In this document: positions 1,417 through 20,257 of the stretch, piece after piece | Layout of the letters: each line of letters starts with the position of its first letter | How positions within the stretch are numbered: the stretch's first letter is position 1 | Virus record (IMG/VR): IMGVR_UViG_3300025120_000721 | Span: 1 to 20,641 of that record | Length of the DNA stretch: 20,641 bases | Origin: a virus | Reading direction: 5' to 3' (one strand) | Notes under the pieces: generated by a model | The model's input: only the letters and a program-made list of their open reading frames with translations | Told to the model about the DNA's origin: nothing | Database searches by the model: none | Program-made: the position numbers and the translations under genes

Positions 1417-2229
1417 TTAAGTCTCCTTAGTTTTTTCAAGTTGCAGCATATAGTCTGTATTTAGAAAGTCCGATTTTCCAAATATTCTCTCAGCAGTGTC
1501 ATCAGCATTTTTAAAATACTTGTCTGCCATTTGATCCAGAAACTCTTCTAGATCATTACTGTGCAAATTTTCTAATTTAGCAATTCTGTCAGCCGTAACT
1601 TTTATGTAGCCACTAACCTCAGTCAGCGCGAGTTGTGGATGAACACCGTACTGCTGCATATATTCAATAGTTGCTGTGGAAGCTCTGCCACCGTCCATTA
1701 GATTTCTATACATTAATTCAAAACCTCGACGAACATGGTGACGCTTTTCTTCTCTTTCAAAAGCAACTTCATCCCATTCATCAATGCCAAAATTTTCCTT
1801 AATGTTTTCATAACTATCAATTAAAGTAGCAATATCTTTTATTGACCCATTAATCTTGTTTTCCATTTGAATTAAGCCATGACGCTTTTGTCTTAGCTTG
1901 GCTTCACTGACAGGATCGGTTGAACCCTCAAGCTCCATAATTTCTACACGAACTTCTGCATGGGAAACTTGCGCTTCATTTAAAGCGTTTTCTCTTTTCT
2001 CAACTTCCGCTGTTATCTGTCGCAACATTCGATATGGCGAGTGACCATTGAGCATTGTCAATGTCATCATGTTTAATGTTGTTTGTGAATTGTTACGATC
2101 AAATGCCCTAGTTGCTTTTGCTATCTCTGGCAATTTCTCAGCGACCTTTGCAGCCGCAACTTGATTTATATTTTTGCTTGCCTCTACTGGCAAAGAAAAA
2201 GTTATTGGTTTTGTTATTATGTTAGTCAT
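1417..2229 (-). CDS. Helical protein of unknown function (270 aa)
   Basis: A 270-residue protein I do not recognise. The ATG at 2227-2229 is chosen because AGAAGG lies six bases upstream; earlier in-frame starts would overlap the propeller gene by about 140 bases. It begins MTNIITKPITFSLPVEASKN and is then almost all predicted helix, highly charged. A likely coiled coil runs from about 70 to 130 (QITAEVEKRENALNEAQVSH and EVRVEIMELEG), followed by YENIKENFGIDEWDEVAFER and a long second helical region to 250. The end reads IFGKSDFLNTDYMLQLEKTK. There is no signal peptide or membrane segment. Its place between the propellers and the repeat protein, and its helical, soluble nature, would fit an assembly chaperone or stalk for those fibres; this is a guess. 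Confidence 0.78.
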   Translation of the reverse strand: MTNIITKPITFSLPVEASKNINQVAAAKVAEKLPEIAKATRAFDRNNSQTTLNMMTLTMLNGHSPYRMLRQITAEVEKRENALNEAQVSHAEVRVEIMELEGSTDPVSEAKLRQKRHGLIQMENKINGSIKDIATLIDSYENIKENFGIDEWDEVAFEREEKRHHVRRGFELMYRNLMDGGRASTATIEYMQQYGVHPQLALTEVSGYIKVTADRIAKLENLHSNDLEEFLDQMADKYFKNADDTAERIFGKSDFLNTDYMLQLEKTKET

Positions 2230-2242
2230 GCTTGACCTTCTT

Positions 2243-3343
2243 TTATGATGGGTTTCCTGCACAAGAGATTGACTCCTCTTGCGTAGACGGCATATCTCCA
2301 AAATCAGTACAATTTGCTGCTGTTTGAATGACGCACTGATCGATTGTATTTGTCGCTGCGTAACCTGAATTTGCACCTGCAAAGAATACTGCTATAGTTT
2401 TATTATTTGCTGTACCCATTCCGTATCTAGCAACCGTCAAATCGCCAAAATCTACAGCGTTCCCTTGAGTAGCAGTTGTGACGTACCCCATTGAATTAGT
2501 AACTGAACCAGTATAACCACCAACATGGATTGATCTTGTGGCGTCTGATACTGCGCCATGCTCTGACGATGAAATTGTCATATCCCCAAAGTCTGTTGCA
2601 TTAGCCGCTGTTGCTGCCGTTACGTAATCAATGTTATTTCTAGCAGGATTACGACCACCAAAAAATAAAACATAAGTTATGTCAGAAGATGCAGTAGCTC
2701 CAATTAATGTAGTAGTGAGATCACCAAAATCTACAGCGTTCCCTGCCGTATCAATCGTGACGTACTGAATGTCGTTAGACTCATGACTTGCACTTGCCCC
2801 ATTTTTATAACCACCGCCAAACAATGCGCGTGTGCCATTTGACGCTGCTGCCATATAATAAAATGTTCCTACTAAATCTCCAAAGTCTGTTCCATTTCCT
2901 GCACTGGCAATTGTTATGTATTCAATGATATTTGTCATAGTGCCTGCTGCTGATCCCCCTGCAAAAAGCCCTCTTGTTTTACTTGAGCAAGCCCCACCTC
3001 TATCGTGATTATGTGATGTTGAGTAATCACCAAAAGTTGAAGCCGTACTTGGCGTTGTTATTGTGTAATATTTATAACCACTACTATCTGTAGTTGTAAC
3101 TGCACGATCACCACCCCAAGTCATAGGAGGTGATAAAGAAATTGTTTTAAACTCACTATTTATATATTGATAGAGAACGCTGTTAGTACTATCCCACCAT
3201 ATATCCCCTGCGCTTGGAGATGATGGTTCTGTACCGCTTGCAGTATAACCTTGCTCAATGGCATTCCCTCTAACCTTTAGCTTGTTAGGAAAGTCTACAT
3301 TTGAGCCGTTGGCATCAATCGTGTTTACTTTTAAAGTACTCAT
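2243..3343 (-). CDS. Receptor-binding candidate with six propeller-like repeats, paralogue C
   Basis: A 366-residue third paralogue. The first 80 residues have STLKVNTIDANGSNVDFPNK, then YTASGTEPSSPSAGDIWWDS and LYQYINSEFKTI; the repeats begin after this. The six anchors are TFGDY, TDFGDL, VDFGDL, TDFGDM, VDFGDL and TDFGDM at about 47-residue intervals, the first being the most decayed. The head part starts with MS-x-L-K-V-N-T-I, a pattern often seen at the fibre N-terminus that binds the virion. The start has the same TAGGAGA-A-run site as paralogue B. The gene after it is unrelated, so the tandem array ends here with exactly three members. Confidence 0.78.
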   Translation of the reverse strand: MSTLKVNTIDANGSNVDFPNKLKVRGNAIEQGYTASGTEPSSPSAGDIWWDSTNSVLYQYINSEFKTISLSPPMTWGGDRAVTTTDSSGYKYYTITTPSTASTFGDYSTSHNHDRGGACSSKTRGLFAGGSAAGTMTNIIEYITIASAGNGTDFGDLVGTFYYMAAASNGTRALFGGGYKNGASASHESNDIQYVTIDTAGNAVDFGDLTTTLIGATASSDITYVLFFGGRNPARNNIDYVTAATAANATDFGDMTISSSEHGAVSDATRSIHVGGYTGSVTNSMGYVTTATQGNAVDFGDLTVARYGMGTANNKTIAVFFAGANSGYAATNTIDQCVIQTAANCTDFGDMPSTQEESISCAGNPS

Positions 3344-3352
3344 TTTTTTCTC

Positions 3353-4501
3353 CTAGTTACCAGAAGCTGAATTACCGTTTTGGTGAAGATCATCTAAATC
3401 ACCAAAATCTGAAGCATTTCCTAAAGTGTTTATATCTATGTATTGGATGGTATTTAGAGCATAAGGAGAAGCAGCTACTTTACCTGATGAAAAACAGGCT
3501 CTCCCAGACAAATTTGTGCAAGCTTTAGTATGAGTACACGCTTGAAGAAGATCGCCAAAATCGGTTGAATTACTTGCTGTACCAATTGTTACATATGTAA
3601 TCACATTTTGCACTGTGGTACTATTATAAGCCTCATGTATTACACCGCGCACATTTTGGCTTGTTCCACAGTTAGTCCATGAAGCGTTAGATAAGTCGCC
3701 AAAGTCTGTTGCGTTAGCTGCTGTTGCAATAGTAACCTGATCTATGACGCTATCTCCCATCGAAGTAGAAAAGCCGCCATGAAAAAGACCTACTGTACCA
3801 TCAGTAATGTTTCCACCAATCTCACTACGACCTACAGTCAAATCTCCATGATCTGCTGCATTAGACGCTGTTGCAGTAGTAAATCTTTGTATTTGATTTG
3901 TCTTATCGCTGTCTCCGTTACCTCCTGCATTTACTGCTATAGTTCCATTACAATTTGCGGCAGCATCTTGTTGCCCATAAGTACCAGATAAATCACCGTG
4001 ATCTGCTGCATTACCCAAAGTTCCAACAGTAATTACATCTATCTTTAAACTTTTTGCGGTTGACCCACTTTGCCCACCAATTACAAATGCTCTTGTTCCA
4101 TCACTGGTACTACTGTTGTATCTCTTTGTTTCTGTAAGGTCGCCAAAATCTGCTGCATTTCCTAATGTTGCAATTGTCCAATATACAATGGAGTTACTTA
4201 TAGCCGCTGCGTTTCTACGATAAGCCCCCATGTATAAAGCTCTTTCACCGCCATCAAATAAAGTTGGTGCATTGCTGTGAGTAATCTGCTTAAACGCACC
4301 GTCAGCATAAATATAAAATTTATCATTTGCTGTGTCGTACCAAGTGTCACCATTTGCAGGGGAAGATGGTTCTGTTCCTGATGCCGTGTAAGCCTTGCCA
4401 ATTAATCCACTATCTGAGCCGCCTATATTGACCCCATATGTAAAATTAGGAGCGCCAGTACCTGCACGATCTGTTATCTTTCTTGTTGTAAATTCTGACA
4501 T
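3353..4501 (-). CDS. Receptor-binding candidate with six propeller-like repeats, paralogue B
   Basis: A 382-residue paralogue of its two neighbours. The head part reads FTTRKITDRAGTGAPNFTYG, then YTASGTEPSSPANGDTWYDT and FYIYADGAFKQI, closely like the same place in paralogues A and C. Six repeats follow, with anchors at ADFGDL 117, ADHGDL 167, ADHGDL 217, TDFGDL 265, TDFGDL 313 and SDFGDL 364. The spacing is 48-51 residues. Several cysteines lie in repeats 5 and 6. The blade sequences differ freely from those of A and C except at the anchors, so the exposed loops have diverged. A TAGGAGA site whose TAG is the stop of paralogue A lies eight bases before the ATG, as in paralogue C; the junctions look like copies of each other. 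Confidence 0.78.
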   Translation of the reverse strand: MSEFTTRKITDRAGTGAPNFTYGVNIGGSDSGLIGKAYTASGTEPSSPANGDTWYDTANDKFYIYADGAFKQITHSNAPTLFDGGERALYMGAYRRNAAAISNSIVYWTIATLGNAADFGDLTETKRYNSSTSDGTRAFVIGGQSGSTAKSLKIDVITVGTLGNAADHGDLSGTYGQQDAAANCNGTIAVNAGGNGDSDKTNQIQRFTTATASNAADHGDLTVGRSEIGGNITDGTVGLFHGGFSTSMGDSVIDQVTIATAANATDFGDLSNASWTNCGTSQNVRGVIHEAYNSTTVQNVITYVTIGTASNSTDFGDLLQACTHTKACTNLSGRACFSSGKVAASPYALNTIQYIDINTLGNASDFGDLDDLHQNGNSASGN

Positions 4502-4510
4502 TATTTTCTC

Positions 4511-5626
4511 CTAAGAAGCTGCGCCTGATGCTGCGCCACCATATCTTGACGCTATTGTTAAATCGCCATGATCTGCTGCGTTTCCTGTTGTTTGAATAGT
4601 AACAATATCCACGTTATTAACAGCAGTGCTTGAGTCCTGACCCCCTAAAAACACTCCCTTTGTTTCGTTGTTGGTAGCTGATAAACCTCCCCTTGCAAGG
4701 CTTAAATCTCCAAAATCTGAAGCGTTACCTGTTGAAGCTATTGTAAAATAATCCATTACATTAGTAACACTAAAACCACCTGCAAATATTGCTCTTGTAG
4801 CGTCTGCACAAGAAGAAGTATTATATCTTGCACTTGTCATATCACCGAAATCTATTGCATTACTTGGAGTAGCATTTGTAATGTATTCAATTGTGTTAAC
4901 AGTTGCATCTCCATACATACCACTAAACAAAGCCCTTGAGGTATTGGTTGCACCTGAGCCTCTTGAGGTAACAGCAGTGTGATCTCCAAAGTCGGTGGCA
5001 TTACCAGAGGTTGCTATTGTAACAAAATCTATTGTGTTGACTTGACTGTTACCTGCGCTTGTTGTTTGTCCACCTGAGAAAATACCAAACTTTCCACCGA
5101 CTGCTGCAAGTCTATACCTTGCTTGGCTCAAATTTCCGAAATCAGTTGCGTTGGCTGCTGTTGAGGTTGTTACTTTATCTATTGTATCAGTAATAGCAGA
5201 GTCATCTCCTCCTCCAAATATAGCAGTTGTACCATCTGATGCACCTGCTAATTGGTCTCTAGCTGCACTTAAATTCCCAAAGTCGGTAAAATTTCCAGAT
5301 GTTGTAATAGAACCATAATTAATTGTGTCTAATTTATTAAAAGAAGCATCAGCGCCACCTGCCATAATCGCACGATCCCCATACCACACTGGCGATATAC
5401 CTATGGTTTCTTTCCACTCCCCTGCAATGTAAATAAATATCTTTTCGTTTGCTGTATCCCACCAGATTGAACCGTTTTTTGGAGAACTTGGTTCACTAGA
5501 ACTTGCTGTATATTGACCAAGATTGAGCGTAGAAAGTGCCGCGCCATTTACAGTTACACCAGTGCTAAAATTGGGTTTGCCAGTACCTGCTGCGTCTACG
5601 ACTGTATCAACTTTTATTTCTGTCAT
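4511..5626 (-). CDS. Receptor-binding candidate with six propeller-like repeats, paralogue A
   Basis: A 371-residue protein. Residues 1-80 are an attachment part shared with the next two genes: TEIKVDTVVDAAGTGKPNFS, then YTASSSEPSSPKNGSIWWDT and FIYIAGEWKETIG. From about 82 there are six repeats of 46-50 residues. Their anchors are FGNL 116, FGNL 163, FGDH 213, FGDM 260, FGDL 306 and HGDL 353, each preceded by T-x-x-x-N-A-x-D and followed by a glycine-pair strand such as RAIFAGG. The blade-like strand-turn pattern and the lone C-terminal strand RYGGAAS suggest a closed six-bladed beta-propeller like Kelch (inference from pattern). No enzyme motif. The ATG has only a weak ribosome site; the stop overlaps the TAGGAGA site of the next paralogue. 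Confidence 0.78.
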   Translation of the reverse strand: MTEIKVDTVVDAAGTGKPNFSTGVTVNGAALSTLNLGQYTASSSEPSSPKNGSIWWDTANEKIFIYIAGEWKETIGISPVWYGDRAIMAGGADASFNKLDTINYGSITTSGNFTDFGNLSAARDQLAGASDGTTAIFGGGDDSAITDTIDKVTTSTAANATDFGNLSQARYRLAAVGGKFGIFSGGQTTSAGNSQVNTIDFVTIATSGNATDFGDHTAVTSRGSGATNTSRALFSGMYGDATVNTIEYITNATPSNAIDFGDMTSARYNTSSCADATRAIFAGGFSVTNVMDYFTIASTGNASDFGDLSLARGGLSATNNETKGVFLGGQDSSTAVNNVDIVTIQTTGNAADHGDLTIASRYGGAASGAAS

Positions 5627-5627
5627 T

Positions 5628-6632
5628 TTATATTACCGCGTATCGCGCCCCACTGCTAATTGTTAAAGTTACACCGCTTGCAATGCTAACAGCACCAACT
5701 GAAAAACCATTGTCAGTTGCTGCAATAGTAGTATTAGAGCTAATGGTTTGTGAATGTGTATTTACAGGACTTAGCCCAGAGCTACCTGCGTTATCGTCTG
5801 CAAAACTTAAGTTGCCTGATCCGTCTGTTTTTAAAACTTGGTTTGCTGACCCATCTGCTGTTGGAAAAGATAACCCATCTAGTACAATCTTACCCGAACC
5901 ATTAGGCGTTATAGCAATATTACCGTCGCTTGCTGAGACAATAGCCTGTCCATTTACATCAAGTGAACCGCCCAACTGTGGAGTCGTATCAGCCGCTACA
6001 CTTGCTATGCCACCTGATCCAGATTGGTCATCCACCCAAGCGTAATCGCTACCGTTCCAACCTAAGATTTGACCAGATGAAGCACCACCGACATTGAGGT
6101 GAGTATTTACATTAGCGTCTGTATAACCTGCATTATCTACCCAAGCATAATCGCTACCGTTCCACGAAAGCACATATCCACTTGTAGGGTTAGATTGATT
6201 TAGGTGACTGTCTACATCACTGTTGCTATATGAGCTTACCGCAACAGGAGCAGTCTCAGCGCCAGCGCCCATTTGACTATGTGAGCCGCAATAGTAGAAA
6301 AGCTGATCTGCTGCATCTTGTTGTAACTGAACCTCAACATATGCGCCTGAGCTTCCAGCCGTTCCTGACGTTGTAATACCTGTTGTGAACTGTGAACCAC
6401 CGCCATGAGTACCATCTGAAGTTGTACTAAATCGTAATGGATGCCCACTGTTAGAACTATCAGAAACATCAAATCTATATTTAACACCTTTGGGAATAAA
6501 CATATCCTGTTGAGATGTTCCATCTATTACAAACTTACCGCCAGCAACCGTGACCGTAACAGCTATACCTTTCAAGCTTCCGTCTGTTTGAACATCTTTT
6601 GCAAACGTGGCTAGATTTCTGTTTATACTCAT
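5628..6632 (-). CDS. Tail fibre protein with a cupredoxin-like copper-binding domain
   Basis: A 334-residue fibre-type protein. Residues about 20-125 look like a cupredoxin (plastocyanin-like) domain: KFVIDGTSQQDMFIPKGVKY, then RFDVSDSSNSGHPLRFS with His64, and QLFYYCGSHSQMGAG with Cys115, His118 and Met121. The His...Cys-x-x-His-x-x-Met set is the type 1 copper ligand pattern. Residues 141-165 and 176-201 are two copies of a short repeat sharing WNGSDYAWVD, encoded by near-identical DNA. LKTDGSGNLSFAD at about 267-279 and the C-terminal SNTTIAATDNGFSVGAVSIA to SSGARYAVI are common fibre or virion-protein elements. AAGGA precedes the ATG. No signal peptide is visible, consistent with a virion protein made in the cytoplasm rather than a periplasmic electron carrier. 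Whether copper is really bound is unknown. Confidence 0.75.
   Translation of the reverse strand: MSINRNLATFAKDVQTDGSLKGIAVTVTVAGGKFVIDGTSQQDMFIPKGVKYRFDVSDSSNSGHPLRFSTTSDGTHGGGSQFTTGITTSGTAGSSGAYVEVQLQQDAADQLFYYCGSHSQMGAGAETAPVAVSSYSNSDVDSHLNQSNPTSGYVLSWNGSDYAWVDNAGYTDANVNTHLNVGGASSGQILGWNGSDYAWVDDQSGSGGIASVAADTTPQLGGSLDVNGQAIVSASDGNIAITPNGSGKIVLDGLSFPTADGSANQVLKTDGSGNLSFADDNAGSSGLSPVNTHSQTISSNTTIAATDNGFSVGAVSIASGVTLTISSGARYAVI
6034..6164 (-). repeat. Near-identical 26-bp direct repeat pair inside the cupredoxin fibre gene
   Basis: Two 26-base copies, 6034-6059 and 6139-6164, differ at one position (GTAATC against ATAATC) and lie 105 bases apart. They code for the WNGSDYAWVD words of a tandem protein repeat. 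Such high DNA identity suggests a recent duplication or gene conversion. Confidence 0.85.
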
Positions 6633-7907: not shown

Positions 7908-8297
7908 TTATGGCAAGTTAGGCCATGAGGGATTGAGAGGATCGAAACCGTCTTGTGCTGGCATATCCCTCAAATTCTGTCTTAGTATTTTATAATTATC
8001 TTTATCTGTTTCAGATAATGGACTGTCAGCCGCTTGCGTCCAATCGGTTGCTGCTAAACGTTTGTTACGCTCTTCTCTAAATTCTATTAAGTTTTCTGCG
8101 TATATGTCAGCTTGCGTTTCACTAACAAAATTTGCGTCAACATACTTCAAATATTTAACACTATTGCTGTCGTTTGGTGCAGCTATCTTTGACATAACGC
8201 CAGTGTCATTTGCACCAATTAAATTATCCGCGTCTGCTTCATCTGCAAACTCTGAAACAATATAACCGCCATCATTAAGGTAAACAAAATAGCTCAT
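7908..8297 (-). CDS. Tail fibre assembly chaperone-like protein (Phage_tail_APC type)
   Basis: A 129-residue acidic protein beginning MSYFVYLNDGGYIVSEFADE. The C-terminal third carries the pattern of phage tail assembly chaperone-like proteins encoded next to fibre genes: EFREERNKRLAATDWTQAAD, SPLSETDKDNYKILRQNLRD, then MPAQDGF and PSWPNLP. The words AATDWTQ-x-x-D-x-P, RQ-x-LRDMPAQ and the final W-P-x-x-P are the recognisable parts. In known phages such proteins help fold or mount fibres, or form a fibre's C-terminal tip. The start overlaps the tail tip stop by 4 bases (ATGA), and fibre genes follow. The N-terminal 70 residues are not recognised. Confidence 0.75.
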   Translation of the reverse strand: MSYFVYLNDGGYIVSEFADEADADNLIGANDTGVMSKIAAPNDSNSVKYLKYVDANFVSETQADIYAENLIEFREERNKRLAATDWTQAADSPLSETDKDNYKILRQNLRDMPAQDGFDPLNPSWPNLP

Positions 8298-11200
8298 GCT
8301 ATATTACTCAACACAAATAAATCACCTTGTACGTTATAACGCCTTGCGTTGGTAACAGTGATTGAAACCGTCACTGAAGTACCACTTAGAGAAAATGCCT
8401 TAATTCCATGTAGTTGCTGAGAATTACTAGTCGATATACTCCCAATGTTACCGTAATCTCTATTAGTTCCCGCAATGTTTATATCTGGTTTTATATTAGC
8501 AGAGTTATTATCAGTATTACTTGTAGCAAAAACCAACCCAGAAAAACCTGCAATAACTTTTGATCCGCTAGTTAATCCTGTAGCGGTTAACGTAGCTATT
8601 GTAGTATTATATTGATAGCTGCTGCCAGTATAAGTATAATTTACTGCTGAAGTATGTGCTGTAGCAATACCAGATCCAGTAAATACACTAGCCGAAATTG
8701 TACCACCTGATATATTACCTGCATTTATTGTACCTGCATAAACATAAGAAGAAACAATAGTATCCGCTTCAATTGATGCCTGTGCCCAAGAGCTACCATT
8801 GTAATGGTAGTATTTTTTATTACCAGTATGGAATAATAAGTCTCCGTTTGTTACTCCCGACGATGGGAAACCATTTTGATAGAATACAGTAGCTTTACCT
8901 AATGCGGTTGTATTTGCAGAGTTAGCTGTTGAATTAGCGGAATTAGCAGTACTTAACGCAGTATTTGCCGTTGAGTTAGCAGTATTTGCTGTTGCTTGTG
9001 CGGTTGCTGCATCATTTACAGCACCATCAGCGGTTGATTGAGCAGTGCTTGCGGCAGAGCTTGCTGAATTGGCTGTATTGTTTGCTGTTGTAGCTGTTGA
9101 ACTAGCGGTATTAGCTGTATTTGTTACAGCCGTTAGATCTGTTCCTAAATTTGTAATCTTGCCTTGTGATAGATTTGGAATTTGCCCTACTGTTAAAGTA
9201 TCTCTAATTGCAGCCGCACCAAACTCCGCTGTACCATCATTCTTAATTCTCCAACCTGCTGAACCTGCACTAAAATTAGAACTTTCAATCGTATCAGTAA
9301 TTTGAAAAGCACCATTAGCTGTGCCGTATTTTATAGAAGTCACAGCACCGCTTACATCTGCCTCAACAGTATAGGTAACTGTCCATTCTTTTTCTACAAA
9401 ACTTGTATTGCTAACCGTTGTTTGGCTGTGAGACCACCCTGACGGGGGTGTGCTAAATGATGCACTAGCCACATTAAAAGTACCACTATTATTTGTAGGA
9501 GCACTAGGAGCAGTTGCTTGCAAGGTTGTATAATATAAAATCCCAGAATAAACGCTTGTATCTGTATCAACACCCGTAGCCGCTGCATCTGTAGTTGCAT
9601 TGACTGAGCTACTTGCTGCGCTTTCATTCCCAGAAAAATCAACTGCTGCAACCCAATAATAATACTGTGTGCTTACTGCCAGAGCAGCATCTACAAATTT
9701 GTCAGACCCACTGAAAGCAATAGGATTAGCTGGCTGTGAATTAGACGTAGCTCTGTAGATATTATATCCCTTAAGATCATACAGCGTAGCGCCACCGACT
9801 TGAGTAGTAGGGGCTGTCCAATCTAAAGTTATTTGCTTTGCGCCACCAGTAGCCGTTAAACCAGAAACACCGCTAGGAGCAGTTGTGTCACCGCCCACAG
9901 TATGCGCTGACGCTGCTACCCAAGAACCTACATTACCTTTAACACCTACACCCCTGACCCTCACATTGTACTGAGCGCCACTTTCCAATGGGCTTATATT
10001 TGCAGCAGTATCAGAAGCTGGGATTTCTGTTCTAAAATAATTACTGTCTGTAGTTTTTTTCCACTCGATTTCATAATGATTTAAAAATTTACTTGTTGCC
10101 GCTGTCCAACTAACTCGCGCTTGTGTCACAAATGTTCCATCTAATTGTACTGAACCGATGTCAGTAACAGAAACATTAGACGGGCTAAGACCAGCCCTTA
10201 TATCTGTAAGGGTTGAATTGTTACTGAGTATTTCGCTTTCTTCTGCTGACCAACTGAAAGCAGCTGAAGATGTTTCACGCAATGTTAAGCTTACACTTAG
10301 TTCACCGCTGGAACTATCGTTTGAAAACTTCCAACCAACTACCTCAAATTCTTTTGCACTCCATCCGTAACGGCTATTGGTTATTCCTACAACGTCACCG
10401 ACTTGAACGTTAAAAGCATCTAACCCAAAATCCGCTGAAACGGTCATGCTTTCACGCGCTCTAAACAAAGTCATCTTGGCTAATCTTTGAGCCATAGCGC
10501 TAGACGTTGTGTAGGGTAGGGCTAAGTCAATAGCGCTTTCTACACCAGCGTCATTATTTATAAAGGTTGTACTTCTTATCTCAGGATAATCAGTGCGTAT
10601 ATAATCGTCAGCAGCAGAGTTAAACATTCCACGAACAATGTTAAAACTATCGCGTCTGCTAGGCTTTGTTTCAACGTTTATTCCAGATCTAAAATCATCT
10701 AGGGTAAAAGTCTTAACAGCTGCTGTGTATTCTCCTACTTTCAATTGCCAGTTGCCCTGACCCCAAAAAAGGGTAGCAGCACAAGAAGTCATCATATCGC
10801 CTAAAATATCAGAGGGGCTTCTGTCTAAACTTACAACACCGTTTAGCTCATATCTTTTTTCAGTGCCGCCATTAGATAACGTAACAGTTTCATCACAAGT
10901 ATTAGCAGCTGCTGAGAACGTTGTATCAAGCGTGACGCCTGTATTATCTACACCATAAGAGCTAGTGAGATAATCACGGATACACAGAGCCGCATTTGCT
11001 GAGAAAGCAGTGCTGGAATTTCTGGGATCATAAACCTTTTTGCCCTCAACTATTGCAGTGAATAAAGGTATTCCCTCAGCAAAAACATTTTGGTCATACT
11101 CCATGCGAACATAGAGGCAAGCAATCCCTTCACCTTTAAAGTTTGTATTTTCACTACTACTAGGAGCAACCCCGTCTATTTTCCATTCTGGGGGATCTGT

Positions 11201-11740
11201 AATAGCGTTTAGTGTGCTGTAAACATTTTGGTTATCAGCGCCTGTAAACTTGCGAATATATATCTTAGCGTTACTGTCTGCGTCTTTCCACCTCGCATCA
11301 GAAACAAAATAATCTGAGCCAATTGTTACAGTTGCGTCATTGATATAAACAGAGCCAATACTATTAACTTCATGTCCACCCAAAACAATTATTTGGTGCA
11401 GAAATTTATTAGTATCACCTGTACTTTCTACATAAGATACTACACCGCCTTTACGGATTGTACCGTATATAATTTCCTGTGGCGCTGTTGCTGTTCTAGT
11501 ATTTGCAATTAATCCCTGACTTGTCCCGAAAGCTCCAAAATCAGGAGTTGGAGTAAGTGCTTTAATAGCCCAAGTAGTAACTGCTGATATTGCTATATAG
11601 CTTATAGCTTTACTTATAAATATTTGACTAGCTGTTGCGCTGGCTAATATATTTCCACCAAATAAAATAAAGGGGTCTCTAGGTATTCTCTCCCAGCTGT
11701 TGAGGCTGACCAATCTGTAATTGTATAGACTGTCTTTCAC
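8294..11740 (-). CDS. Tail tip / host-specificity protein with fibronectin type III domains (lambda J-like role)
   Basis: Largest gene of the window, about 1148 residues; central tip protein that contacts the host. I chose a GTG at 11738-11740 because it overlaps the preceding stop as GTGA, like two neighbouring ATGA junctions; a TTG four codons upstream is the alternative. Numbering from the GTG: a hydrophobic stretch at about 25-62 (ASQIFISKAISYIAISAVTT); a hub-like region to about 495, with VEGKKVYDPR and VQVGDVVGITNSRYGWSAK; two fibronectin type III domains at about 520-614 (SPLESGAQYNVRVRGVG) and 620-718 (GYNIYRATS, YYYWVAAVDFSGNESA); a linker; an Ala/Thr/Asn-rich stretch at about 871-949; and a beta-rich C-terminus with ADTIVSSYVYAGTINAGNIS. 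The hub region and order identify it; the C-terminal half likely determines receptor contact. Confidence 0.86.
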   Translation of the reverse strand: MKDSLYNYRLVSLNSWERIPRDPFILFGGNILASATASQIFISKAISYIAISAVTTWAIKALTPTPDFGAFGTSQGLIANTRTATAPQEIIYGTIRKGGVVSYVESTGDTNKFLHQIIVLGGHEVNSIGSVYINDATVTIGSDYFVSDARWKDADSNAKIYIRKFTGADNQNVYSTLNAITDPPEWKIDGVAPSSSENTNFKGEGIACLYVRMEYDQNVFAEGIPLFTAIVEGKKVYDPRNSSTAFSANAALCIRDYLTSSYGVDNTGVTLDTTFSAAANTCDETVTLSNGGTEKRYELNGVVSLDRSPSDILGDMMTSCAATLFWGQGNWQLKVGEYTAAVKTFTLDDFRSGINVETKPSRRDSFNIVRGMFNSAADDYIRTDYPEIRSTTFINNDAGVESAIDLALPYTTSSAMAQRLAKMTLFRARESMTVSADFGLDAFNVQVGDVVGITNSRYGWSAKEFEVVGWKFSNDSSSGELSVSLTLRETSSAAFSWSAEESEILSNNSTLTDIRAGLSPSNVSVTDIGSVQLDGTFVTQARVSWTAATSKFLNHYEIEWKKTTDSNYFRTEIPASDTAANISPLESGAQYNVRVRGVGVKGNVGSWVAASAHTVGGDTTAPSGVSGLTATGGAKQITLDWTAPTTQVGGATLYDLKGYNIYRATSNSQPANPIAFSGSDKFVDAALAVSTQYYYWVAAVDFSGNESAASSSVNATTDAAATGVDTDTSVYSGILYYTTLQATAPSAPTNNSGTFNVASASFSTPPSGWSHSQTTVSNTSFVEKEWTVTYTVEADVSGAVTSIKYGTANGAFQITDTIESSNFSAGSAGWRIKNDGTAEFGAAAIRDTLTVGQIPNLSQGKITNLGTDLTAVTNTANTASSTATTANNTANSASSAASTAQSTADGAVNDAATAQATANTANSTANTALSTANSANSTANSANTTALGKATVFYQNGFPSSGVTNGDLLFHTGNKKYYHYNGSSWAQASIEADTIVSSYVYAGTINAGNISGGTISASVFTGSGIATAHTSAVNYTYTGSSYQYNTTIATLTATGLTSGSKVIAGFSGLVFATSNTDNNSANIKPDINIAGTNRDYGNIGSISTSNSQQLHGIKAFSLSGTSVTVSITVTNARRYNVQGDLFVLSNIA
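8894..9130 (-). repeat. Alanine/threonine/asparagine-rich repeat in the tail tip protein
   Basis: About 79 codons with repeated words such as TANT, STANS and NSAN, spaced at near-heptad intervals (NTANTASSTATTANNTANSA is an example). The DNA is correspondingly repetitive. Such stretches in phage tail proteins form trimeric coiled coils linking the hub to distal domains. No lysine or glutamate charge pattern is seen, so a canonical coiled coil is probable but not certain. Confidence 0.7.
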
Positions 11741-12156
11741 TCTAGCACCCAACCACTTGTAATTGTTTCTATCGGTAGAGCTTCCAAAGACTGCTTTCCT
11801 AAAAAGACAGCGCTGCTACCTATGCTTATTCCAAGAGCATCATTTATTACCCAACGTCTAGCAGCCTTCGTTGTAACTAGACTTCCTCTAGGGGGTACTC
11901 CATCAACTCTTGTCAGCTTTGTTTCTAGAGCTTCATAAAGTGTATTTGCTCCAAACCGTTTTCTAAGTTTTTCCCGACTTAAATAAATACCATTTTTTGT
12001 ATATTTACAAAGCCAATCATCAGCATAGCCAATGCCATACATTGCGCGAAAACAGTTGTTAGTAAAAACAAAGCAATCGTTTGTATGCCATTGAAAACCG
12101 TAGCCTCTATTTGCTCTTATATAATCGTTAAGAGCATCTAGATTAGGTTGCTTCAT
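11737..12156 (-). CDS. DUF6950-like tail-tip protein (NlpC/P60-related, probably without catalytic His)
   Basis: A 139-residue protein. The ATG at 12156 is preferred over one 63 bases upstream because the family sequence begins with LDALNDYIRANRGYGFQWHT and because it leaves only a 14-base overlap. The N-terminal Asp-Cys motif (WHTNDCFVFTNNCFR, Cys28) is the nucleophile position of NlpC/P60-type peptidoglycan hydrolases, and PPRGSLVTTK is the place of their Gly-Asp turn. The position of the catalytic His (His-x-Gly-Ile) instead reads DALGISIG, so Ala replaces His. That suits the DUF6950 family, where the fold may serve structure rather than cell-wall cutting. It lies where lambda K-like proteins are found, between the hub and the host-specificity protein. 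Confidence 0.75.
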   Translation of the reverse strand: MKQPNLDALNDYIRANRGYGFQWHTNDCFVFTNNCFRAMYGIGYADDWLCKYTKNGIYLSREKLRKRFGANTLYEALETKLTRVDGVPPRGSLVTTKAARRWVINDALGISIGSSAVFLGKQSLEALPIETITSGWVLE

Positions 12157-19261: not shown

Positions 19262-20257
19262 TTATTTAGGGAGAAATTTAGCTTTCATCTTTAAGCGTCT
19301 TATGACGCTGTGATGTCTGCGTTTTGCGTGTCGCGCGTTTCTGTACTTCTCCAGACTACTCATGGCACTTCTTAAACCGATTGATGTACTTTCGTAGGCT
19401 GGGGTTGTAACAATGCTCACATCGTGCAAATCAGCCCTAGTAATGGTGCGAGTAGGCATTTCAGACTCATCACTCCATTCTTGTGCTGTAGGTACGAAAG
19501 CGAACGACATTTTGTCCAAATCACCCCTCTTCATTTTGGGGAGAATTGATCGGACATCGGGATCTGAAGGATCTAGATTGGCTCTTATTTTAAGACCTCT
19601 TTCATCCTCAGATAATTCTAACGTACCGCTGCGAGTACGTGCTAATGGTAGGCCAGTGTGATTAATTAGAAAAACAACATCGTCACGATCTACTGCATCT
19701 GTAAATGCACCACGCGCAATTTGCTCTTGCCACTTTCCAGCTATAATTGTTGGACTATCAAAGACAGCTGCATAACCTTCAACTGCTACAGTACCGTCAT
19801 CAACTTCACGAATTTCTAAACCTTCAGCTAGTCTAGCCTCACGGTACTTGTTTTTGTCTTTATCTTTCTTTTTACCGTAAGCGCTATCTTCAATGTCAGT
19901 CATATCTTCATCCTCATACTGCTCACTTTTTCCAAAAGTAATTATGATTTCCGTTTCTGTTTCTTTGATGTTTTTTATGTTGCGATCTTCAGAGCGCTCA
20001 CTAACAACTGATAGTGTTGAGAACTTGTGACCAACAAGCTGACCTGTAGCGCTATAACCATCTTCACCTTCACGGTAGAGCATGATTAAAGCCGCTGGAT
20101 CATCTTCTGTTGCGTTTAGAGTAAACTCAGTATCTGGCACGTTAAGTGTACCGTCTTTGACTATGCGTCTTACTTTGCCGTAAGCTTTGCCACCGCTGCT
20201 ATCCCAGCTGACGAAATCACCTACAGCAACCCCGTCAGGTGCTGCTCTATTCAACAT
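19262..20257 (-). CDS. Prohead protease (HK97 S78-type) with an extra N-terminal domain
   Basis: Serine protease that cleaves the capsid delta domain and itself during head maturation. The protein has 331 residues, longer than a plain HK97 protease of about 200. Residues 145-295 are the protease: it opens with VAVEGYAAVFDSPT, has the catalytic His200 in LINHTGLPLART and Ser251 in KMSFAFVP, and ends with HDVSIVTTPAYEST. Residues 8-85 form a separate beta-rich domain (GDFVSWDSSGGKAYGKV, then VGHKFSTLSVV) resembling SH3/Tudor-like DUF2945 or XkdF-associated domains. A charged, lysine- and aspartate-rich linker (about 112-145) joins the two. The C-terminus, from about 305, is very basic. The start is an ATG preceded by TAAGGA about 11 bases upstream. 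It lies between portal and capsid genes, as expected. The protease call is firm; the role of the N-terminal domain is unknown. Confidence 0.92.
   Translation of the reverse strand: MLNRAAPDGVAVGDFVSWDSSGGKAYGKVRRIVKDGTLNVPDTEFTLNATEDDPAALIMLYREGEDGYSATGQLVGHKFSTLSVVSERSEDRNIKNIKETETEIIITFGKSEQYEDEDMTDIEDSAYGKKKDKDKNKYREARLAEGLEIREVDDGTVAVEGYAAVFDSPTIIAGKWQEQIARGAFTDAVDRDDVVFLINHTGLPLARTRSGTLELSEDERGLKIRANLDPSDPDVRSILPKMKRGDLDKMSFAFVPTAQEWSDESEMPTRTITRADLHDVSIVTTPAYESTSIGLRSAMSSLEKYRNARHAKRRHHSVIRRLKMKAKFLPK

Follow-up and report, generated by a model that had tools for sequence, protein, structure and literature searches.

Three tandem phage genes with gene-specific N-terminal domains and predicted Kelch-fold propellers, a probable set of modular receptor-binding proteins

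The window analysed here (20,641 bases) is one entire IMG/VR viral record, IMGVR_UViG_3300025120_000721. Three consecutive minus-strand open reading frames (ORFs), which we call A, B and C, occupy exactly positions 2243-5626. They share one architecture, in which homologous N-terminal domains of about 75-83 residues, the putative sockets, are followed by six units of about 48 residues that are predicted to form a propeller, the putative tip. The array comprises the following features:

4511..5626, minus strand: gene A, 371 amino acids (aa); socket domain at residues 1 to about 80 and predicted six-bladed Kelch-fold propeller at residues ~83-368
5387..5626, minus strand: A-type N-terminal socket domain (about residues 1-80)
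4499..4513, minus strand: A-B junction, TAGGAGAAAATAATG, with a Shine-Dalgarno-like GGAG overlapping the A stop codon
3353..4501, minus strand: gene B, 382 aa; B-type socket domain and six propeller units
3341..3355, minus strand: B-C junction, TAGGAGAAAAAAATG, arranged as the A-B junction, with GGAG overlapping the preceding stop codon
2243..3343, minus strand: gene C, 366 aa; C-type socket domain and six propeller units, the first degenerate

Since the GGAG before each start overlaps the previous stop codon, translation of A, B and C is probably coupled across the junctions. Neighbouring array genes of relatives overlap or mostly sit a few bases apart.

An earlier note on this DNA had described three tandem genes with a common N-terminus of about 80 residues and six repeats each, and the ORFs, the repeat anchors and a profile search bear this out. 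All three proteins carry six anchors, spaced by 47, 50, 47, 45 and 48 residues in A, by 49, 50, 49, 48 and 51 in B and by 50, 52, 46, 47 and 49 in C, where the first anchor is degenerate (TASTFGDY). A hidden Markov model (HMM) of the unit, made without any window sequence, detected six units per protein, scoring 44-66 bits in A, 39-52 bits in B and 43-64 bits for five units of C, with 11.2 bits for its first. Shuffling the three proteins (600 copies) gave a top score of 12.0 bits, so that 17 of the 18 units lie far above chance. The first unit of C is supported by its position and by the canonical first unit of homologues (54 bits at locus L003, 72 bits at L002). Read in Kelch phase, with strand b first and strand a last, each protein consists of six complete units and none is left over. 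The residues conserved throughout the family are structural anchors (NATDFGDL, GG and TR) which recur in each blade.

The fold of A was predicted by AlphaFold2 from an alignment of 92 relatives (mean predicted local distance difference test score 91.2; propeller blocks about 92-98, propeller about 97). The model shows four strands per blade and a ring-closing strand supplied by the C-terminus. According to our reading of the strand list, the domain would start with strand b in Kelch phase and the C-terminal strand would complete the first blade. Top PDB matches in Foldseek were the six-bladed Kelch domains of KLHL12 and KEAP1 together with SAKe6 designs (E 4e-20 to 1e-17; template modelling scores by target mostly 0.83-0.90, and 0.87-0.90 for KLHL12 and KEAP1). 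That is, the A model and its structural matches display the closed ring of four-stranded blades of 44-56 residues that characterises the Kelch-type fold, in support of the Kelch-like six-bladed propeller suggested in the earlier note. B should have the same fold because it is 37% identical to A.

Pfam Kelch profiles gave no match for A, B or C at E values up to 10, and Kelch_1 matched weakly in only 2 of the 92 relatives (best E 0.037). The unit consensus keeps the Kelch GG doublet and Tyr; the Trp is replaced by the Phe of the DFGD anchor, and the unit thereby departs from the Pfam Kelch motif. Given the missing Pfam match despite the fold, the window propellers would be Kelch folds outside the recognised Kelch sequence family. 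They resemble KEAP1 and KLHL12 in their six four-stranded blades of ~48 residues, in the glycine doublet after strand b and in the C-terminal strand that closes the ring. They differ, besides the Trp position and the Pfam result, in having a phage socket domain where KEAP1 and KLHL12 have BTB/BACK.

Although a six-unit query was used to retrieve the loci of relatives, a protein did not need six units to be found or counted. Of the 129 ORFs that were complete and non-redundant at 90%, 109 contained six units, 10 contained 12 and 2 contained 18 (121 of 129 taken together), and at least some of the 8 ORFs with other counts are split or shortened genes. Multiples of six are what a closed ring predicts, as the earlier note had argued from the equal copy number in A, B and C. 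We rejected a loose repeat array, given these multiples and the closed model of A. Split propeller genes (3+3 or 4+2 units) were located at L081:6481, L108:6628, L118:5632, L136:2895, L125:2501, L188:3791 and 5481, and L038:6601. They break directly after the Gly-Gly doublet, with stop and start overlapping or nearly touching (mostly TAATG), and are usually next-to-last in their array.

Array size was counted at loci anchored on a helical protein encoded downstream (see below) and complete on the upstream side (n=74). One propeller gene was present at 18 loci, two at 9, three at 44 and more at 3. Far from never being found together and having unrelated N-termini, the genes thus most commonly form three-gene arrays, with N-termini that are orthologous by position. 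A search of isolates for the propeller family returned only Synechococcus phage S-SKS1, at 28% identity, and a genome scan yielded one contig, binned to a Porticoccaceae genome, which carries a six-gene array. At L025, L032, L051 and L133, six-unit propellers stand behind far longer N-terminal regions (about 160-490 residues), which suggests that the propeller tip is probably used on several fibre kinds.

Sockets and tips follow different rules of descent. In triple arrays, the nearest neighbour of an N-terminus holds the same position in other loci in 63 of 69 cases. Across 10 non-redundant triple arrays, identity between N-termini at the same position exceeded that at different positions by 8.4 points, a difference reached by none of 2000 permutations (standard deviation, SD, 1.07). 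For the propellers of nine loci this difference was 0.05 points and was reached by 816 of 2000 permutations (SD 0.23). Where N-termini were at least 85% identical, propellers were less than 50% identical in 63 of the 88 gene pairs; A of the window and A of L010, for example, share 86% identity in their N-termini and 33% in their propellers. The reverse chimera was found as well, between gene 1 of L091 and gene 2 of L215 (propellers 87%, N-termini 42%). C shares 90% identity with the final array gene of L005 and 89% with that of L012, loci at which A and B reach about 43-52%. The helical protein flanking the array is 87-96% identical in the relatives compared. At L010 and L012 it is 95-96% identical to the window copy and the A and B proteins are 43-63% identical, so that A and B diverge faster than their neighbour.

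At two further loci, L061 and L062, three tandem genes carry such N-termini ahead of a different, five-unit repeat domain:

L061:6001-9084: tandem run of three genes, each with a related socket and a five-unit repeat domain

The N-terminus of the first L061 gene is 67% identical to the A-type socket of the window. Repeats similar to those of L061 recur several times in Roseobacter phages CRP-13, CRP-9, CRP-738 and CRP-2, and repeats similar to the L061/L062 domain are present in Roseobacter and Lentibacter phages.

The permutation test, the chimeras and L061 all display the hallmark of modular receptor-binding proteins (RBPs), a conserved N-terminal attachment domain with an exchangeable C-terminal domain. 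These sequence comparisons indicate that sockets and tips evolve separately. The earlier note had spoken of a heteromeric or interchangeable set, and both parts hold: the sockets are position-specific and the tips have been swapped over evolution.

The array is surrounded by the following genes:

8294..11752, minus strand: homologue of the central tail protein J
5628..6632, minus strand: fibre-type gene upstream of A with tail fiber PHROGs match, a conserved array neighbour
1417..2229, minus strand: 270-aa, all-helical partner protein (phrog_1409) whose gene closely follows the array

Along the minus strand, head genes (prohead protease, HK97-type major capsid) are followed by tail genes, the J homologue, a tail fibre assembly gene, tail-fibre-type genes and finally A, B and C. 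From the J homologue, the array can be assigned to the tail-tip/fibre module, where it lies downstream of J and of the tail fibre assembly and tail fibre homologues. The N-terminal stretch of the 5628-6632 product resembles a cupredoxin-like domain by eye and has no Pfam match.

We consider it probable that A, B and C are co-translated tail-tip receptor-binding proteins whose sockets stay fixed and whose Kelch-fold tips can be exchanged, a virion role that we infer from their genes and genomic setting. Each ~80-residue N-terminal socket would fix its protein to a site of its own on the tail apparatus, and the variable loops of the C-terminal six-bladed propeller would contact the host surface. 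Whole propeller tips would be exchanged between sockets and between phages and thereby change recognition, with the sockets, the flanking tail genes and the helical protein (1417-2229) staying in place. A, B and C would be displayed simultaneously. More tentatively, and with clearly less confidence, we envisage a marine adhesion system, widespread among phages, of three gene-specific sockets, freely exchanged tips and a dedicated helical assembly partner that may display three specificities at once on each virion.

Several observations weigh against such a receptor-binding set. The ratio of nonsynonymous to synonymous substitutions (dN/dS) between three close C copies (89-91% identical), a comparison proposed in the earlier note, was 0.13-0.17 overall, higher in loops (0.21-0.33) than in anchors (0.06-0.10) and nowhere above 0.35. 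At such values, no positive selection is seen in the loops between these copies. Loop dN/dS here reflects relaxed constraint, and without positive selection the sequences point to diversification mainly by exchange. At L061, the socket match is weaker for B (51%) and C (55%) than for A (67%), and the best hits of the L061 B and C N-termini elsewhere do not always hold the same position. Furthermore, no fibre-switching device was found in the window, and hence no sign of alternative expression. Fibre switching by inversion was rejected: all tip genes lie on one strand in one run, and the inverted pairs of at least 14 nucleotides are imperfect, none clearly flanking the tips as an invertible segment. 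A reverse transcriptase, as in retroelement diversification, was absent from the family-library matches of the window genes scanned, several genes lying outside that scan and the record being a fragment.

The partner protein is modelled as all-helical with a long helical hairpin. Its family occurs in 52 of the 68 propeller loci. Kelch propellers, in turn, are present at 109 of the 111 unique loci of the helical family that have more than 1.5 kb upstream, directly upstream in 97. Our best guess is that the helical protein assists in the assembly of this type of propeller. It might instead be unrelated to the propellers, for example a neighbouring lysis or replication gene; its model has no significant PDB structural match and its PHROG no assigned function. 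We regard this as doubtful, since the association persists although copies at propeller loci are often only 20-27% identical to the window copy, and since L061, with its other tip type, has no copy of it in the stretch from its last tip gene to the following conserved gene. A search of the S-SKS1, L061 and L062 records, run without a positive control, found no helical protein, and no isolate carrying it was found. Among marine phages that have diverged widely, the helical protein is thus newly connected with arrays of Kelch propellers, and it is a testable assembly-factor candidate of a large unannotated family.

For the propellers themselves, an enzymatic role is improbable. Polysaccharide-degrading tailspikes or galactose-oxidase-like enzymes would be in keeping with the propeller folds in predicted Klebsiella phage depolymerase domains (PMC11448410) and with a protein annotated galactose oxidase among the viral Kelch matches. 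However, the conserved residues are per-blade structural anchors, no singular conserved catalytic set was seen, and the best-matching structures are Kelch domains with a binding, non-enzymatic function. Slightly less probable again is a role in decorating the capsid or tail tube, or in nonspecific binding to sugars or particles. Virion structural protein is all that some phage Kelch proteins, such as CBB_552 (PMC5259590), are known to be, but the fibre-module position after J and the tail fibre genes, the gene-specific sockets and the tip exchange typify receptor-binding proteins. That the genes arose by a simple, recent tandem duplication and do not differ in function is highly improbable: copies within a locus do resemble one another (propellers averaging 45%, slightly above the similarity between loci), but the positional orthology of the N-termini dates the copies to before these phages diverged, and C alone is conserved at about 90% in L005 and L012.

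Modular phage RBPs are already known, and the variant described here consists of three sockets with Kelch-fold tips. In Klebsiella phage multi-RBP systems, the N-terminal anchor is kept and the C-terminal specificity module swapped (PMC8262889, PMC6872550); there, in the sections cited, the tips are capsule depolymerases, whereas the window has one Kelch-fold family at all positions and a linked helical partner. Staphylococcus phage phi11 Gp45 is a tail-tip receptor-binding protein with a beta-propeller (PMC4901313). Its propeller is five-bladed and belongs to one protein, which forms a homotrimer and also has a helical stem and a tower at the C-terminus; the window proteins, known from genes and a model, are three paralogues with six-bladed, C-terminal propellers. 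Pectobacterium phage CBB, a giant phage, likewise encodes several Kelch-fold proteins (550, 552, 554), one of them in the virion (PMC5259590), and the viral fold matches include Kelch-like proteins of CBB. A common sequence family with the window is not established, and the cited section describes no socket/tip array. In metaviromic islands of marine phages, host-recognition genes form a hypervariable part of the genome, a likeness to the window; the genes described in the section cited are tail fibre, C1q and lectin-like genes, with no propeller array (PMC3909814).

The sequence directly gives the type of socket, the type of tip and the size of the array, which could help to predict host change in marine phages. 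The system is countable, modular and present on many uncultured viral contigs, and its strict sixes make it a natural family for studies of propeller evolution. The host of the window phage is likely alphaproteobacterial, since its major capsid protein is closest (44-50%) to Rhizobium and Labrenzia phage capsids. At its N-terminus, the prohead protease (19265-20257) matches a TUDOR-type domain (Hva1_TUDOR, E 5.8e-7).
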